Source of the DNA: a virus
Virus record (IMG/VR): IMGVR_UViG_3300006805_000110
Span: 1-30,110 of that record
Reading direction: 5' to 3' (one strand)
DNA length: 30,110 bases
The translations under genes were made by a program, and so were the position numbers. A model generated the notes under the pieces. That model made no database searches and was not told where the DNA came from. It was given only the letters and a program-made list of their open reading frames with translations. Position 1 is the first letter of the stretch. Each line of letters begins with the position of its first letter. Shown piece after piece: positions 23,240 to 30,049 of the stretch.

Positions 23240-26158
23240 TCATTTCCTATTTGCCCCGAGCAGGCTCGGCTGGTGGGTAGAGGGGGCCACCCCCACGACG
23301 CAGACCGCCGAACGAGGGTCCACCTCCTCCATCTGAAGCTCGGAGAACTTCAGCGATACCAGGAGGAAAGCCAAGGCGTGGAAGTAATGGTCCACCCCGG
23401 TCAGCTTGACCCAGGTCGCCGGCTGCTCGGGCTGTTCATCGCGCACCATGTCCTTCAGATGCTCGGTGATCAGCAGCTCCTGATCGCCATAGCCGGAGAA
23501 CTGGATCTGGTGCAGGCGCACGACCTTGGCAACGAGGTCCAACATCGCGGTGCGGTTGGCCTGCCCATAGGTCTCCATGAAGTTGACCTCTTTGGTCCCC
23601 CGGTATTCCACTGGCAGGATCCGGCCCTTCGACTGCTCGAAGAGGGCATTGGCGGTCGGGGTGTAGGGATGGCGGTCAACCGCGCCGCCAATCACGTTGT
23701 AGGTGTCAAGGATGACCTGAACGGTCTCCGCGAGGGCCTCGACGGGCACGGCCAGGAACTGGACAACCCGCATCCGGTTGGTGACGGTGCCTTGCCCGAC
23801 GATGACGTGGCAGATCAGGCCCATGTCGATGCCGAGCCATGTCGGCGCGCGGGCATCGACCGGCGGCACGGACTGGGAGCCGGTGAAGCACAGCTTGATG
23901 TCGGCATCGTTCAGGCGGGCGTTGGCATCGGTGTAGGGGCGGCCAAGCACAGTGTTGTGCCAGCCGCGGATGAAGCCAAGATTGGAATACTCCAACATTT
24001 GGGTGATGATATACTGGACTGACAAACGGTCGGTCGAGCAGGGATCGACCTTGTAACCCCGGTGGTTGGTGCGCCCGGGGTATTTGGCCACCCACTGGCG
24101 GTTATCCACGTCGCCCAGCTCGAGCGCGCGGCGGCACTTGACGCAGCAGAAATATCCACTGGCCAGGTCGACGGCGGGCGCGTCGAGGTGGGTTTGCTTC
24201 AGCTCCATCAGCGGGGTGTCAGCGGACAGCCCGGGGATGATCACCGACTTGTCCGAGAAAGTCGGGGCCTGCCAGTGGCCGCACTTCGGGCAGCGGCAGA
24301 GGTATTCGTGCTGATCGGACCCCTGATAGCCCGCGTCGATCCCGAAGCCGACGAAGGTCGGTGTCGAAAACTTCTGCTTGACCTTGTAATCGGAGTTCTG
24401 GAGGCGCGACGAGAACAGGGCCAGCATCTTCTGGTCGGTGAGATCCACCTCGTCGTTGAAGACGAAGTCGGCGGCGATCGAGGTCGCATCGCCCTCCTTG
24501 GCGCCGGTCACGTAAAGGAACGAGGAACCGATCTGGATCATGTCCTTACGGCGCACCGGCTTGTCATTCGATGTGGAGTCGAGGTTGAAGACCTTTTCGT
24601 CCTTGACGAGGGGCATGATCCGGCTGGAGGCCATCCGCTCAAACATCGGATCGGTGGGCAGGGTGAAGATCAGCGATGTGCCACGCAGGCGCGTGACAAT
24701 CGCTAGGGATTTTCGGATCTGGATCTCAGAATTATGGGTAGGGATCATTCCGCGACCAGCGAGGAACAGATGGCTCGGACTCTCGACGTTGATACAACGG
24801 ACAGGCACGCTAAGCGTGGGTGTCACCGAGACGATCCGGCGGCGCAGGGTCTCCCCAGGGCGACTGTTCTCCCGCAGGGGAAGCCGGTTCAGTTTGCGAG
24901 GTAGCTTGAAAAGGGTGTGTTCTGCATAGGCAGCGCAGCTCACCTCAGCAATCATTTTCTGAGAGTTGATTACATGCCCACTCTTGAGCGTGCCGAAGGC
25001 AGGTTTGCGCCAACGGGTGCGAGACTTCAGCCCGAGAGAATGGAAGAGTTGCTCGACCGCAGAAACAAGTTGGGGGTTCGTGTTGTAGAAGGAGACCCGC
25101 CCAGATTTCGTGATCGACCCATCGGTGTCCAGTAGGCCTTGCAGAACCTCGAGCCGTGCTTGGGTCGATGCCAGCAGATAGATCTCTGGTAAGTGTTTGT
25201 TCTTCAAGACCCCGAGCTCGGTCAGCCGACGGTGCATGGTGTCCAGAGGGGTGGATACATCCCGGGGGGTCTGTTTATGGTAGAAGGCCCCCTCTTGTTT
25301 CACACACTCCGAACAGCGGTTCCACTCTCCATAGGTTCCAACGACGCCCTTGTCGTGACCTCGGGGACAAAGGTTCTTGTCCCGTGCGGGGTTGACCGAG
25401 AAGCTATGGTTCGGCCCGATTTGCGTCTTCAACTCGCATACCAGACCACGTTCGGTCAGGATCTGTTGCAATACGAAGCTATCGTCTTCATGGGCGGTCA
25501 AGGTGGGGTGATGAGAGGATCCATCCCCCAACCATAGGCCAAGAAAATAGGGATCCACTGGCAAGTTCGTGTCGGTGCCTGAGAGAGGTTGCGTATTAGG
25601 GATCGCAAAAAGATTTCTCGTGGGGTGGGTTATGTTTGCCAAGGTTTGTGTTGTGAGGATCCCCTCCCGCTTATAGTCCGAGGAGATTGGAACCCGACCT
25701 GAGTGCGGGTAAAGTCCCTGCTCATTGAAGGCCTTATCACACTGGACGAACCAGCGGTGCTGAGCATCGGCCACGATCTTCTCGCCCGTGTCGAACTCAA
25801 CGACATAGCAGGAGTGATCGAGATAGATGGGGGAGACCCAGAGGACCTTGGTAGGCTGTCCGAGTTCGGTGTAAACCGTGTCGCCTGGGAGAAGTTCCCC
25901 CATGGTGGTCCAGCCGGTGGGGGTGATGACCGGCGTGTCCAGGGCAAGAGCCAGACCGACCTGGGAGGGTTTCACCACATCGAGGTTGGGGTGCATGTCG
26001 TCGGCAATCGCCTTCTGGAACGGGTAGCGCTTGAAATCGAAGGGTTTGCCGCGCAGGGAGGTGTTCGCGCAGATCCAGTCCCCCATCGACATGTCGCTGG
26101 AGTCGACAGCGAAGCGATTGTCGATGCGCCGAACCAGTTCTTGGACGAAATCATTCAT
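23240..26158 (-). CDS. terL: Terminase large subunit (GpA-type) with in-frame intein
   Basis: 972-residue precursor; about 565 after splicing. It is the DNA-packaging motor and nuclease. Numbering from the ATG at 26158: the ATP-binding loop KPSQVGL (63-69) continues after the intein as SEIQ (from 477); Walker B is FVFNDE (D569/E570). Zinc-binding cysteines lie in CRCPKC (621-626) and CCVKC (671-675), as in lambda gpA relatives (COG5525). The nuclease acid candidates are D778 (WLGIDMG), D828 (AVDRHPYT) and D923 (VDHYFHALAF). The ATG has AGGAG upstream and lies downstream of a 17-bp-spaced promoter. A GTG start 23 codons earlier (26227) lies upstream of that promoter and has no Shine-Dalgarno. 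It starts the structural operon. Confidence 0.92.
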   Translation of the reverse strand: MNDFVQELVRRIDNRFAVDSSDMSMGDWICANTSLRGKPFDFKRYPFQKAIADDMHPNLDVVKPSQVGLALALDTPVITPTGWTTMGELLPGDTVYTELGQPTKVLWVSPIYLDHSCYVVEFDTGEKIVADAQHRWFVQCDKAFNEQGLYPHSGRVPISSDYKREGILTTQTLANITHPTRNLFAIPNTQPLSGTDTNLPVDPYFLGLWLGDGSSHHPTLTAHEDDSFVLQQILTERGLVCELKTQIGPNHSFSVNPARDKNLCPRGHDKGVVGTYGEWNRCSECVKQEGAFYHKQTPRDVSTPLDTMHRRLTELGVLKNKHLPEIYLLASTQARLEVLQGLLDTDGSITKSGRVSFYNTNPQLVSAVEQLFHSLGLKSRTRWRKPAFGTLKSGHVINSQKMIAEVSCAAYAEHTLFKLPRKLNRLPLRENSRPGETLRRRIVSVTPTLSVPVRCINVESPSHLFLAGRGMIPTHNSEIQIRKSLAIVTRLRGTSLIFTLPTDPMFERMASSRIMPLVKDEKVFNLDSTSNDKPVRRKDMIQIGSSFLYVTGAKEGDATSIAADFVFNDEVDLTDQKMLALFSSRLQNSDYKVKQKFSTPTFVGFGIDAGYQGSDQHEYLCRCPKCGHWQAPTFSDKSVIIPGLSADTPLMELKQTHLDAPAVDLASGYFCCVKCRRALELGDVDNRQWVAKYPGRTNHRGYKVDPCSTDRLSVQYIITQMLEYSNLGFIRGWHNTVLGRPYTDANARLNDADIKLCFTGSQSVPPVDARAPTWLGIDMGLICHVIVGQGTVTNRMRVVQFLAVPVEALAETVQVILDTYNVIGGAVDRHPYTPTANALFEQSKGRILPVEYRGTKEVNFMETYGQANRTAMLDLVAKVVRLHQIQFSGYGDQELLITEHLKDMVRDEQPEQPATWVKLTGVDHYFHALAFLLVSLKFSELQMEEVDPRSAVCVVGVAPSTHQPSLLGANRK
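24731..25951 (-). mobile_element. Intein (class 3 signature) with LAGLIDADG homing endonuclease in the terminase P-loop
   Basis: 407 residues (70-476 of the precursor). It opens ALALDTPVITPTGW, so position 1 is Ala instead of Cys or Ser, and ends in PTHN before Ser+1. Block B has Trp136 (ADAQHRWF), block F has Cys455 (VRCINVESPSHLFLAG) and block G has Thr474. This W-C-T set plus a non-nucleophilic first residue defines class 3 inteins, which use the block F Cys for the first step. Two LAGLIDADG motifs (FLGLWLGDG with D212, LQGLLDTDG with D346) look intact, so the nuclease may be active. A zinc-finger-like C-x3-H-x13-C-x2-C insert lies between them. The extein junction KPSQVGL/SEIQ matches terminase P-loops once the intein is removed. 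Confidence 0.93.
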
Positions 26159-26211: not shown

Positions 26212-26246
26212 ATCCCAAGCACTTCACTGAAGTCCCAATTTAGGTG

Positions 26247-26744: not shown

Positions 26745-29185
26745 GCGGTATTTTCGGTAGCACGGCGGCGGGCTATTACGCTCGGGGGATCTCGGTCATC
26801 CCACTGCATGCCAAGGAGAAGCGGCCGATCCCGCTGGATTGGTCCCGCTTCCACGATCAACCGGTGCCAGAGTCCGAGCAGGCGCACTGGCTCCGGGCCC
26901 ATAGTGGGGGCAATATCGGGATGGTGCTGGGCAAACAGTCCGGGATCATGATGCTCGACATCGACACCGAGGACAAAGATGTCATCGACGTTATCCTCAG
27001 GCTGATCCCAGAGTCGCCGTGGGTGCGCGTTGGCCAAAAGGGCATGGTTCTCGCGTTCAAATACTCGGGCCTGCGCACCTTCCGCATCAAAACCGCCAAA
27101 GGCGAGAGCGTCTGCGAACTGCTCTCTGACCGGACCCAGTGTGTGCTGCCACCGTCGATCCACCCTAAGACGATGAAGCCCTATGTGGCGAATTGTGATC
27201 TTCTCGAGGTGATCGATGATCTTCCGGTCCTGAACAGTCAGATTGAGACCATGTTGCGCGCGGCGCTGACCGAGGCGGGCGTGGATCTGAGCAGCACCGG
27301 GCAGTCACAGGTCACCGATTTCGTCTCGCGCGGGTCGCGCGACGTGTCGATGACGGAGAAGGCTGGCCTGTTCGCCTATGCCGTGGTGCGCGGGGAGCGC
27401 ACGGTGATGGAAGCCATCGGCATGCTGCGCTCGGTGCACCGGGAGTTTGTCGAGCGCGTGGCGGGCGATGACGTCGAGGTCGAGAAGCACGTCGACAACC
27501 TGTTCCGCTTCCTGCGGCGCGACGTGATCGAGAAGAACAAGATCCTGCCCGAGGGGTGGGACACCGGGCTAAGCGATGAGGACAAAAAGCGCTGGGGCAT
27601 CGATTTTGACGGCGATCAGGTGGAATGGTCGTTCGACGAGCTTCGCAACTTCCTGAAGGACAAATTCGTCGAGTTCAGCGATGCCGAGGACGCCACCGGG
27701 CGGGCCAATGCGGTGGACCGGGTCCTGACCAAGATCTCACGGTCGAAGCAGCTGAACAAGCTCGATGAAGAGCGGCTGCTGACCTACATCATGGACGTGG
27801 GCAACATCGGGTTGCGGCTGGCCTCGCTGCGCATGCGCCTGCACCAGCTGCGGCAGGGCGACGTGCTGGGTACCGACCACTCCGAGATCGCGCGGCTGGT
27901 GCTGCGGGACCTCGAGGAGCTCTATGAGGTGCGGCGCCATGGGGGGCGGCTTTGGAAATACACCGGTTCGCACTGGGAGCCCATCCCCGAAGGGATGATC
28001 TTGGCCCGGATCTCAAATGATTTTGGTCACCTGCTGGCCGCCCGGAAGAACAACGACCACAAGGGCATCATGCAGATCATGACGGTGATCGCCAAGGAGG
28101 GGATCAAGGAGCGCGAAATGCGCGGCGTGAACTTCGCCAATGGCTTCCTGAACCAAGAGATGGAGCTGGTCAAGCACCGCCACGAGTATGGGATGACCTA
28201 CACGCTGCCCTTCCGATATATGCCGGAGCTGGCGGGCAAGTCCCGGCTGTTTTTCGAGTTCCTCGAGCAGAGCTGGGGGATGGACGAGGACTATCAGGAC
28301 AAGCTGCTGATGCTTCAGGAGGCGCTGTGCGTCACCCTGTTTGGCCTGGGGCCGCAATACCAGCGGGCAATCCTGCTGCGCGGCGTGGCGAAGTCTGGCA
28401 AGAGCCAACTGCTGAAAATTGCGCAGTCGCTGGTGCCGGAGAACGCGGTTTGCTTCGTTCCGCCGAACGACTGGTCCGATAAGTTCCTTCCGACGATGAT
28501 GCACGAGAAACTGATCAACGTTTGTGGTGAATTGTCCGAGACAAAGCGCATTGACGGGCAGAAATTCAAGGACATCATCGACGGATCCGAGCGATCGGGG
28601 CAGTTGAAGGGTCAGCAGATCTTCCGTTTCAGCCCTGCTTGCGTGCACTGGTTCGCCTCTAACCACACGCCGAAGACCGAGGACAGTTCCGAGGGCTTCA
28701 ATCGGCGGCTGCTTTTCTTGGAATTTAACCACCCGGTGGCGGCAAAAGACCGCAAAACCGACCTCGGAAACATGATTGTAGCCGAGGAAAGGGAGGCAAT
28801 CGTGGCGTGGGCGGTGCTGGCGCTGCCGAGATTGCAGGAAAACCGTGAATACACCCTGTCCAAGAGCCACATTCAGCAAATTCGGGAAGTGGCGCAGGCC
28901 AATAATTCTGTCCGTTTTTTTATGGAGGCCTGCCCGACGATCCAGGTCGGGAACTCCTCGGACCGCATCTTGGAAGACAAGCTGTACAAGGAGTATTGGG
29001 GCTTTTGCTTAGGGCCGGGGGGTGCGAGGCCTGTTACTTCGCGGAGCTTCAGGACCATGATGCGAGATCTGCAGACCACGCTGGGCTTTCAAGTCGAAAT
29101 GGGCCGAACTTCTCTCGGCGCGGACGAAGTCTATTACCGGTCTATCACAGTTGTGACGAAAAAAGCGGGAGCGTCGTCCTCGTAG
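26741..29185 (+). CDS. Bifunctional primase (AEP) - SF3 helicase
   Basis: 814 residues. The N-terminal 165 residues are a primase-polymerase (AEP) domain: MLDIDTED at 71-78 gives D73 and D75, and LPPSIHPKTMKPY at 136-148 is a typical later motif. The second motif is RVGQKGMVLAF, without the classical His, as in some phage relatives. The middle part (200-500) is a helical D5_N-type region. The C-terminal part is a superfamily 3 helicase: Walker A GVAKSGKS (548-555), Walker B LINVCGE (591-597), sensor N641 (ASNHTP) and the candidate Arg finger R655/R656. Such proteins prime and unwind DNA in phage replication, often with an origin nearby. It is translationally coupled to the upstream gene and is followed by a strong terminator. 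Confidence 0.92.
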   Translation: MSGIFGSTAAGYYARGISVIPLHAKEKRPIPLDWSRFHDQPVPESEQAHWLRAHSGGNIGMVLGKQSGIMMLDIDTEDKDVIDVILRLIPESPWVRVGQKGMVLAFKYSGLRTFRIKTAKGESVCELLSDRTQCVLPPSIHPKTMKPYVANCDLLEVIDDLPVLNSQIETMLRAALTEAGVDLSSTGQSQVTDFVSRGSRDVSMTEKAGLFAYAVVRGERTVMEAIGMLRSVHREFVERVAGDDVEVEKHVDNLFRFLRRDVIEKNKILPEGWDTGLSDEDKKRWGIDFDGDQVEWSFDELRNFLKDKFVEFSDAEDATGRANAVDRVLTKISRSKQLNKLDEERLLTYIMDVGNIGLRLASLRMRLHQLRQGDVLGTDHSEIARLVLRDLEELYEVRRHGGRLWKYTGSHWEPIPEGMILARISNDFGHLLAARKNNDHKGIMQIMTVIAKEGIKEREMRGVNFANGFLNQEMELVKHRHEYGMTYTLPFRYMPELAGKSRLFFEFLEQSWGMDEDYQDKLLMLQEALCVTLFGLGPQYQRAILLRGVAKSGKSQLLKIAQSLVPENAVCFVPPNDWSDKFLPTMMHEKLINVCGELSETKRIDGQKFKDIIDGSERSGQLKGQQIFRFSPACVHWFASNHTPKTEDSSEGFNRRLLFLEFNHPVAAKDRKTDLGNMIVAEEREAIVAWAVLALPRLQENREYTLSKSHIQQIREVAQANNSVRFFMEACPTIQVGNSSDRILEDKLYKEYWGFCLGPGGARPVTSRSFRTMMRDLQTTLGFQVEMGRTSLGADEVYYRSITVVTKKAGASSS

Positions 29186-29300
29186 ACCGTGTGACGCGGT
29201 TGGAGCATCGCGCTCATATCACTCGGCACCCGGGGCTTGGCAAAAGCTACCGGGACGACCCGGGAGCCTTGTAGGCACTCGGGCCTCACGGCTAGGGGCT

Positions 29301-29342
29301 AGGGGCGTTCTCTCGCAGTGAGGTGCGAGGGGCGCCCCTTTT
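29301..29342 (+). terminator. Rho-independent terminator after the primase-helicase gene
   Basis: A nested stem: AGGGGCG pairs with CGCCCCT, and inside it CTCTCGCA pairs with TGCGAGGG (one G-T) around GTGAGG, followed by TTTT. It lies 115 bp beyond the stop. A GC-rich stretch between them (29186-29300) holds a CCGGG-ACGA-CCCGG hairpin (29250-29263) and no gene. Confidence 0.8.
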
Positions 29343-29344
29343 GC

Positions 29345-29379
29345 TTGACAAAAGTGGTTCAAAGTGGTTCACTATGAAA
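29345..29379 (+). promoter_or_regulatory. Candidate promoter with tandem 10-bp operator repeats
   Basis: TTGACA (29345-29350) is a perfect -35 box. It is followed by two exact adjacent copies of AAAGTGGTTC (29351-29360, 29361-29370) and then by ACTATGAAAA. A -10 box is unclear: CACTAT at about 20 bp spacing is the best choice. The repeats would sit on top of the promoter, where a bound repressor blocks RNA polymerase. What is transcribed is not obvious; no gene with a ribosome binding site follows. Confidence 0.5.
29351..29370 (+). repeat. Exact tandem repeat AAAGTGGTTC x2
   Basis: Two identical 10-bp units, one helical turn apart, each containing GGTTC. The same GGTTC at 10-bp spacing occurs upstream of the Arc-like gene at 15975-15990. 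Confidence 0.9.
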
Positions 29380-29656
29380 ATTGAAAAATTAAAAATCAAC
29401 GTCTGTAGCATGACCATTCGGACGCTGTTGCCCCCCTGCCATAAAAGCCCCTACACCTTAGGGACCGCGACAACCTACTGACTACCTGTTGCTGCGGCGC
29501 TGGTCCACCGGGCTAGCAGACTTGCACCGCGCTACATAGGACTAGGCGCTAGCCTTGACACGCTAGCGATATGTCCGACCGAACACGGCCCTAATTCCCC
29601 TTTTGGGGGCCGCTACAGGTATGCTCTTTTTCAGCCCAGTCGGGGCAAAGTAAAGG

Positions 29657-29682
29657 AATATGCAGGCTTGTTGCTGCATATT
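29657..29682. repeat. 9-bp perfect inverted repeat, 8-bp loop
   Basis: AATATGCAG and CTGCATATT flank GCTTGTTG. No T tract follows, so a terminator is not likely. Confidence 0.85.
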
Positions 29683-29716
29683 GTTGCCGCTTAGGGTTAT
29701 ACCCGATGATAGCGCG

Positions 29717-29733
29717 CCTAGAATGGTTCTAGG
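29717..29733. repeat. Palindrome CCTAGAA-TGG-TTCTAGG
   Basis: A 7-bp perfect inverted repeat with a 3-bp centre; it looks like an operator for a dimeric protein. It also contains TGGTTCT, like the repeat in the Arc-like gene promoter, and CCTAGAA also occurs at 15958-15964 near that promoter. Confidence 0.75.
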
Positions 29734-29760
29734 TGGAAAACAAAACGTATAGGCTGCGTT

Positions 29761-29796
29761 GGTTTAATCCGCGCCTATATAGCACCAGATTAAACC
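29761..29796. repeat. 9-bp perfect inverted repeat with an overlapping alternative stem
   Basis: GGTTTAATC (29761-29769) pairs with GATTAAACC (29788-29796). An alternative stem, ATAGGC plus GCG (29749-29758) with CGCGCCTAT (29770-29778), overlaps it, so the two structures exclude each other. Confidence 0.75.
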
Positions 29797-30049
29797 CGCT
29801 AATAAGCGAATAACCGACAGCCCTAAATCAGACTGATATTGCGCCGCATGTATGCGCCGCTATTGGAAAGGTTAAAAGGGATAGGGGAAAGCGCGATATG
29901 GCCTAAGCTAAATCACTAAACAATCAAAACGGATTTAGTTTCGCAGGCATTGTGCCTATTTTGTAAACCGCTAATTGCTTAGGGCTCGGGAAAGCCTAAG
30001 GCTAATTGTGGCAAGCAAAACAGAAACTAATTCAAATAGCGTTTAGCTT

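Follow-up and report, generated by a model that had tools for sequence, protein, structure and literature searches.

A putative class 3 intein with a zinc-finger-like module in its endonuclease, inserted in the P-loop of a gpA-family phage terminase

The stretch of DNA analysed here (the window) is a virus contig of 30,110 bases. Its minus strand carries a reading frame (26227–23240) that is open over 995 codons counted from a GTG; the likely start of the terminase gene is the ATG at 26158, which is preceded at 11 nt by AGGAG. The frame contains a single 407-residue segment without a stop codon that runs from 25951 to 24731 (precursor residues 70–476), and the preliminary description of this DNA had placed an intein at precisely these coordinates. 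The features of the locus, with residues numbered within the intein, are:

23240–26158, minus strand: intein-interrupted terminase large subunit gene of the gpA type (972-residue precursor; alternative start GTG at 26227)
25952–26158, minus strand: N-extein of 69 codons, ending in VVKPSQVGL, the first half of the gpA-type P-loop (gap-free alignment to intein-free terminases of phages JWF and Seuss)
24731–25951, minus strand: predicted class 3 intein of 407 residues, ALALDTPV...MIPTHN (junctions from intein-free homologues; 6bs8 and 6rix by sequence and fold; AF2)
25751–25768, minus strand: block B, DxxHxW, with Asp62, His65 and Trp67 of the class 3 signature
25520–25546, minus strand: first LAGLIDADG motif, FLGLWLGDG, with Asp143 (alignment A4; helix 134–143 in the model)
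25244–25390, minus strand: insert with the zinc-finger-like module C195-x3-H199-x13-C213-x2-C216 (module core 25304–25369), in the first LAGLIDADG half, after strand 181–188 and before the next helices
25175–25204, minus strand: block D region, LKNKHLPEIY, with Lys252 (invariant in alignment A4; the motif was part of the search pattern)
25118–25144, minus strand: second LAGLIDADG motif, LQGLLDTDG, with Asp277 (Pfam LAGLIDADG_3, 3e-9; alignment A4)
24794–24796, minus strand: block F Cys386, the predicted initiating nucleophile (aligned with the block F Cys of 6bs8)
24731–24739, minus strand: block G, Thr405-His406-Asn407, whose Asn is predicted to cyclise and release the intein (alignment with 6bs8 and relatives)
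24728–24730, minus strand: Ser+1, the first C-extein residue, which doubles as the P-loop Ser/Thr (Thr or Ser at this position in intein-free terminases)
23240–24730, minus strand: C-extein, with the rest of the ATPase and the nuclease (Pfam GpA_ATPase; phrog_675)

In the precursor, numbered from the ATG at 26158, the intein begins at Ala70 and has its block B Trp at residue 136, its block F Cys at residue 455 and its block G Thr at residue 474. The precursor has a calculated mass of 108.7 kDa, the intein one of 45.4 kDa and the spliced terminase (565 residues) one of 63.3 kDa, slightly above the approximately 62 kDa given for the spliced product in the preliminary description.

The host protein belongs to the gpA-type (PF05876) terminase large subunit family. 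Its C-extein matches GpA_ATPase with an E-value of 7.5e-12, exceeding the Pfam gathering score, and the PHROGs terminase profile phrog_675 with an E-value of 8e-90; it also matches phrog_15, a terminase profile that already includes an intein segment. GpA_ATPase was likewise found in 35 of 40 C-exteins scanned (33 from intein carriers and seven from intein-free terminases). Downstream of the terminase are genes for a portal, a possible head maturation protease, a major head protein and tail proteins up to a J-like tail protein, and a gene for a Prim-Pol/D5-type primase is divergent from the terminase. The order primase–hypothetical–terminase, followed by a portal-like gene, is common to JWF, Seuss, 2-1, Lumi and fJoAci04; therefore, the window phage belongs near these phages. 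Judged by profile matches and gene order, the host gene is the terminase large subunit of a Seuss/JWF-like phage. The intein-bearing protein is also present on a second metagenome contig (L002/L012) with 99.99% identity over 9.5 kb. In this stretch, IMGVR_UViG_3300025896_003316 (L002) differs from the window by one mismatch; a longer comparison gave 91 mismatches and 10 gaps, nearly all of them in the last ~1.2 kb, past 28730 (about 28730–29959), at the end of the primase gene.

The junctions of the intein are clearly defined by intein-free homologues. The terminase sequences from JWF, an Achromobacter phage, and Seuss, a Caulobacter phage, align without gaps on both flanks, reading VIKPSQVG(L/M)^TE(I/V)Q(I/V)RK (insertion point marked by ^) against VVKPSQVGL[407 aa]SEIQIRK in the window, and the nearest intein-free terminase (L175) has an uninterrupted KPSQVGLSE at the insertion point. 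Since these homologues run uninterrupted through the site, the junctions are exact, and both the N-terminal junction at Ala70 and the interruption of the P-loop between Leu and Ser, as first proposed, are supported; the loop is a variant gpA type (KPSQVGLSE; compare KSARVGY^T in other gpA-type terminases) and not the canonical GKT/S. A group I intron or other RNA element was rejected, as the frame is open throughout and Rfam gives no match in the window. ATP binds at the interrupted loop, so the precursor presumably has no packaging activity before splicing, and it is reasonable to expect that the packaging ATPase would need splicing; such a loss of function before splicing is cited for a RadA P-loop intein (PMC6195587).

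The same insertion position, just before the P-loop Ser/Thr, recurs in many gpA-type terminases (KxAQVGA^TE, KSARVGY^TK, SSAQVGK^TE), and the TerL1-a inteins of mycobacteriophages occupy an analogous place in another terminase family (PMC5050341). As judged from these alignments, class 3 inteins are common occupants of the P-loop site in gpA-type terminases, and the window intein is a further example of an already known kind. This commonness was overlooked in the preliminary description, as was the Cys/His module at intein residues 195–216. A further site of this P-loop type (KGAQVGG^P...THN^TE) is that of a class 3 intein in a terminase-like gene (1801–2898) of L203, the 'plasmid' CP092490.1 of Endozoicomonas sp. 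Mp262, an unannotated 39.5-kb linear element that is probably a phage or phage-plasmid.

The intein begins with Ala1 and therefore has no Cys, Ser or Thr at position 1; it carries Trp67, Cys386 and Thr405 at positions B12, F4 and G5 of the W-C-T signature, His65 in block B, His406-Asn407 in block G and a hydroxyl-bearing Ser+1. The signature, the Ala start, the terminal HN before Ser and the identification of Cys455 as the block F Cys had all been read from the sequence beforehand and were borne out. The numbers of the block B residues are those of DnaBi1 from Mycobacterium smegmatis, for which the structure and P-loop site have been described and a C118A change abolishes splicing (PMC6195587). 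In a phmmer search of the PDB, the best matches were the class 3 DnaB inteins 6bs8, 6rix and 6riy (E-values 3e-27 to 5e-26), which cover both splicing halves; the match to 6bs8, the M. smegmatis class 3 DnaB intein (3e-27), extends over residues 1–69 and through the C-terminal Asn. Superposition of the predicted model on 6bs8_A by Foldseek covers 67 columns at 0.7 Å with 55% identity. In a tree built without a class 1 outgroup, the window intein nests among WCT inteins.

Conservation was assessed in 166 relatives collected from viral contigs, genome contigs and phage records. The relatives were found by patterns in the endonuclease motifs, which makes conservation of the splicing residues an independent check. 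His65, Trp67, Cys386 and Asn407 are invariant in all 166, and Trp, Cys and Thr are jointly kept in 165, the one exception being L118, in which Thr405 is replaced by Ser. At position 1, 126 relatives have Ala and 30 have Pro (together 156 of 166), and the +1 residue is Ser in 88, Thr in 75 and Cys in three. In class 3 inteins the block F Cys attacks first, giving an intermediate branched at block F, transfer to the +1 residue follows and Asn cyclisation completes the reaction (PMC5222942). An Ala at position 1 is compatible with class 2 as well as class 3 (PMC5222942; PMC7765530), and in a class 2 intein the +1 residue would attack the N-terminal junction directly, leaving the block F Cys without a role. 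Such a mechanism is very improbable here: the W-C-T residues of blocks B, F and G are all in place and are conserved together, the nearest solved relatives are class 3, and the window has Ser at +1 and His in block G where the class 2 type example has Cys and Ser, respectively. Membership of class 2, which is defined by the absence of both a position-1 nucleophile and the class 3 block F Cys, was rejected because that Cys is present. The intein might also be a splicing-dead or cleavage-only relic that is translated while the exteins are no longer joined. However, every catalytic residue is intact, as are the LAGLIDADG residues; the frame of the host gene is unbroken, the terminase that it encodes is essential, and the phage was recovered on two contigs, all of which makes a relic highly unlikely. 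Class 3 splicing of the window intein is very likely.

The AF2 model of the intein is of high quality (pLDDT 93.9, pTM 0.90). The sequence set behind it consisted of the window intein and the collected loci, with two rows from annotated phage records left out. Its best fold match in the PDB is PI-SceI (Foldseek, 2.7e-20), a bifunctional splicing and homing intein. Two acidic LAGLIDADG motifs (Asp143 and Asp277, both acidic residues having been noted before), the conserved Lys252 and the PI-SceI-like fold identify the central domain as a DOD homing endonuclease, which is likely active; the conservation of the LAGLIDADG and block D motifs among the 166 relatives is partly a product of the search, which used these motifs as patterns.

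Within the JWF/Seuss-like terminases, those of the window, L014 and L015/L197 carry the intein and their neighbours lack it. The closest terminase to that of the window, L175 (55–57% identity), has no intein, and a single clade of intein-bearing terminases is rejected (p-AU about 6e-51; for the window and L014 alone, p 0.027), so that several gains or several losses are needed. Current mobility is plausible, and would fit both the intact endonuclease residues and this scattered distribution. Alternatively, the scatter may reflect old vertical inheritance with repeated loss and no recent homing. The inteins of the window, L014 and L015 form a well supported group of three on the intein tree, and an L014+L015 grouping within it, which fits the terminase tree better, is not rejected by the intein data (p-AU 0.53). 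Intein identities to the window exceed the extein identities (57.7 vs 45.0% for L014; 50.9 vs 40.1% for L015), but transfer of the intein is not claimed from this difference, as other pairs fall on the same smooth curve. Vertical inheritance with loss accommodates the shared curve and the unrejected grouping; it sits less easily with carriers that are not a clade and with an intein-free nearest terminase, and we give it somewhat less than an even chance. Third-position GC content (GC3) is 0.67 in the intein and 0.77–0.85 in neighbouring genes; as that of the 69-codon N-extein is 0.59, the low value of the intein was not used as a sign of recent arrival.

Compared with the intein of LittleE and other inteins, the window intein has approximately 50 extra residues after strand 181–188, which hold CPRGH…CSEC; the insert is absent from the seven inteins that were first aligned. 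Predicted alone by AF2, the module forms a knuckle and short strands or a hairpin, followed by a helix that starts at the CxxC, a treble-clef arrangement with four conserved Cys/His ligands in the knuckle and at the start of the helix. When the module was searched against Pfam, PDB sequences and Foldseek, no recognised zinc-finger family or fold was matched significantly; thus, it is named only zinc-finger-like. The module very probably binds zinc.

The pattern C-x2-G-H…C-x2-C is found at one alignment position in 27 of the 166 inteins, whose hosts are gpA terminases and several other genes; carriers besides the window include L014, L015, L016, L094, L099, L105 and L132, and in L017 the first match of the pattern begins six residues earlier. 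The C-x3-H and CxxC are invariant in the 27 aligned modules, for which the motif was the selection rule. As a check on this circularity, inserts were sorted by length, taking non-DnaB inteins with at least 75 residues in the interval aligned to window intein residues 168–252. All four ligands are present in 27 of these 31 inserts; the copy in L152 has His replaced by Tyr, and L118, L046 and L137 hold other sequence without Cys ligands, the latter two scoring weakly as helix-turn-helix in Pfam. On an intein tree built without the module columns, presence of the module requires at least 13 changes.

Other sequences occupy the same slot elsewhere. In the actinobacterial DnaB class 3 inteins (L120–L173), it holds one or two CxxC…CxxC or CxxC…CxxxC ribbons in 42 of 46, with weak Pfam double-zinc-ribbon scores, and in the 74 inteins with a filled slot, Cys makes up 9.5% of residues within it and 1.8% elsewhere. 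No such motif is found in the slot of 95 of the 166 relatives (about 57%). Slots without such a motif, and the fact that Pfam, PDB sequences and Foldseek gave no match to a known DNA-binding zinc finger, would suit an insert that acts as a structural stabiliser or a non-metal loop with no part in DNA recognition. Against this, the four ligands are retained in those 27 of the 31 long non-DnaB inserts while the remainder of the insert is very variable, and the zinc ribbons or helix-turn-helix-like segments of other inteins (weak Pfam matches, E-values 0.0024–0.013) are what would be expected of DNA-binding add-ons. A purely structural role appears rather unlikely, and we favour, with modest confidence, a module that adds DNA contacts for target recognition.

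The slot follows the second beta hairpin of the first LAGLIDADG half and precedes the helices that come next; we read it as an exchangeable site for DNA-binding modules, the window intein being one case. A broader proposal, to which we give nearly even odds, is that this slot in class 3 intein endonucleases takes CxxGH-CxxC fingers, single or paired zinc ribbons and helix-turn-helix segments, that these have been swapped many times, and that inteins may thereby retarget to new genes. In two class 3-like inteins of glycosyltransferase-like phage genes (L004, 4001–5155; L005, 4001–5167), an extra helix-turn-helix-looking segment was observed before the LAGLIDADG domain, with the penultimate His replaced by Ser or Lys.

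The window intein is most readily compared with four known systems. M. smegmatis DnaBi1 (6bs8) and MchDnaB-1 (6rix) share Ala1, D62xxH65xW67, the block F Cys, the block G T-H-N and insertion in a P-loop before Ser, with 55% identity over the structurally aligned part; 6bs8, however, is a mini-intein without an endonuclease in a helicase, whereas the window intein has a full LAGLIDADG domain and the Cys/His module. The mycobacteriophage TerL1/TerL6 inteins (LittleE, BAKA, Bethlehem) share a terminase host, sites in the ATPase domain or P-loop and a full-length LAGLIDADG domain, and some are class 3; the BAKA and Bethlehem inteins have been demonstrated to cut intein-free alleles (PMC5050341). 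Their hosts are of the terminase_1/6 and not the gpA type, identity is about 31%, and LittleE lacks the module. The P-loop inteins of other gpA-type terminases (L014, L015, L016, L094, L102, L107 and others; phrog_15) share both the site before Ser/Thr and the class, and the module is present in L014 (57% identical) and L015 (51%); these inteins reside in other phages or prophages, and many (the L102, L106 and L107 groups) are without the module. Finally, yeast HO and WHO likewise combine a LAGLIDADG endonuclease of intein origin with a Cys-based finger, which in HO is required for target cutting (PMC7282813). In these proteins, which do not splice, the finger is at the C-terminus, in contrast to the window intein, whose finger-like module lies inside the first endonuclease half and whose splicing residues are intact. 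HO and WHO have been called the only known intein–zinc-finger fusions in a paper on yeast HO (PMC7282813), and a zinc-finger-like module in a class 3 intein endonuclease is apparently undescribed so far in the open-access literature.

Taken as a whole, a class 3 intein in the P-loop of a gpA-family terminase, with a LAGLIDADG endonuclease and a zinc-finger-like module, is an explanation that we hold with high confidence, and we infer the following course of events. The terminase-intein precursor would be translated whole, and the block F Cys386, aided by His65, Asp62 and Thr405, would attack the Leu69-Ala70 peptide bond, with Trp67 packing the intein core. The N-extein would then be transferred to Ser+1 and Asn407 would cyclise, such that the terminase halves are joined into the 565-residue packaging ATPase. 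The two-motif endonuclease would cleave terminase genes that lack the intein, at their P-loop codons, and repair would copy the intein in, and the putative zinc-binding, treble-clef-like module would most likely add DNA contacts for recognition of this target.

With the window intein, a crowded group gains one more member, and the preference of class 3 inteins for the terminase P-loop is confirmed, here for the gpA type; the mycobacteriophage survey recorded no terminase inteins outside the terminase_1, terminase_6 and Pham3880 types (PMC5050341). The module slot carries more weight than the intein itself, and the module is the part that may be new. If fingers, ribbons and helix-turn-helix segments are indeed exchanged in intein LAGLIDADG endonucleases, they would offer a mechanism, open to test, for the movement of inteins between unrelated genes, as well as natural templates for meganucleases with extended specificity.
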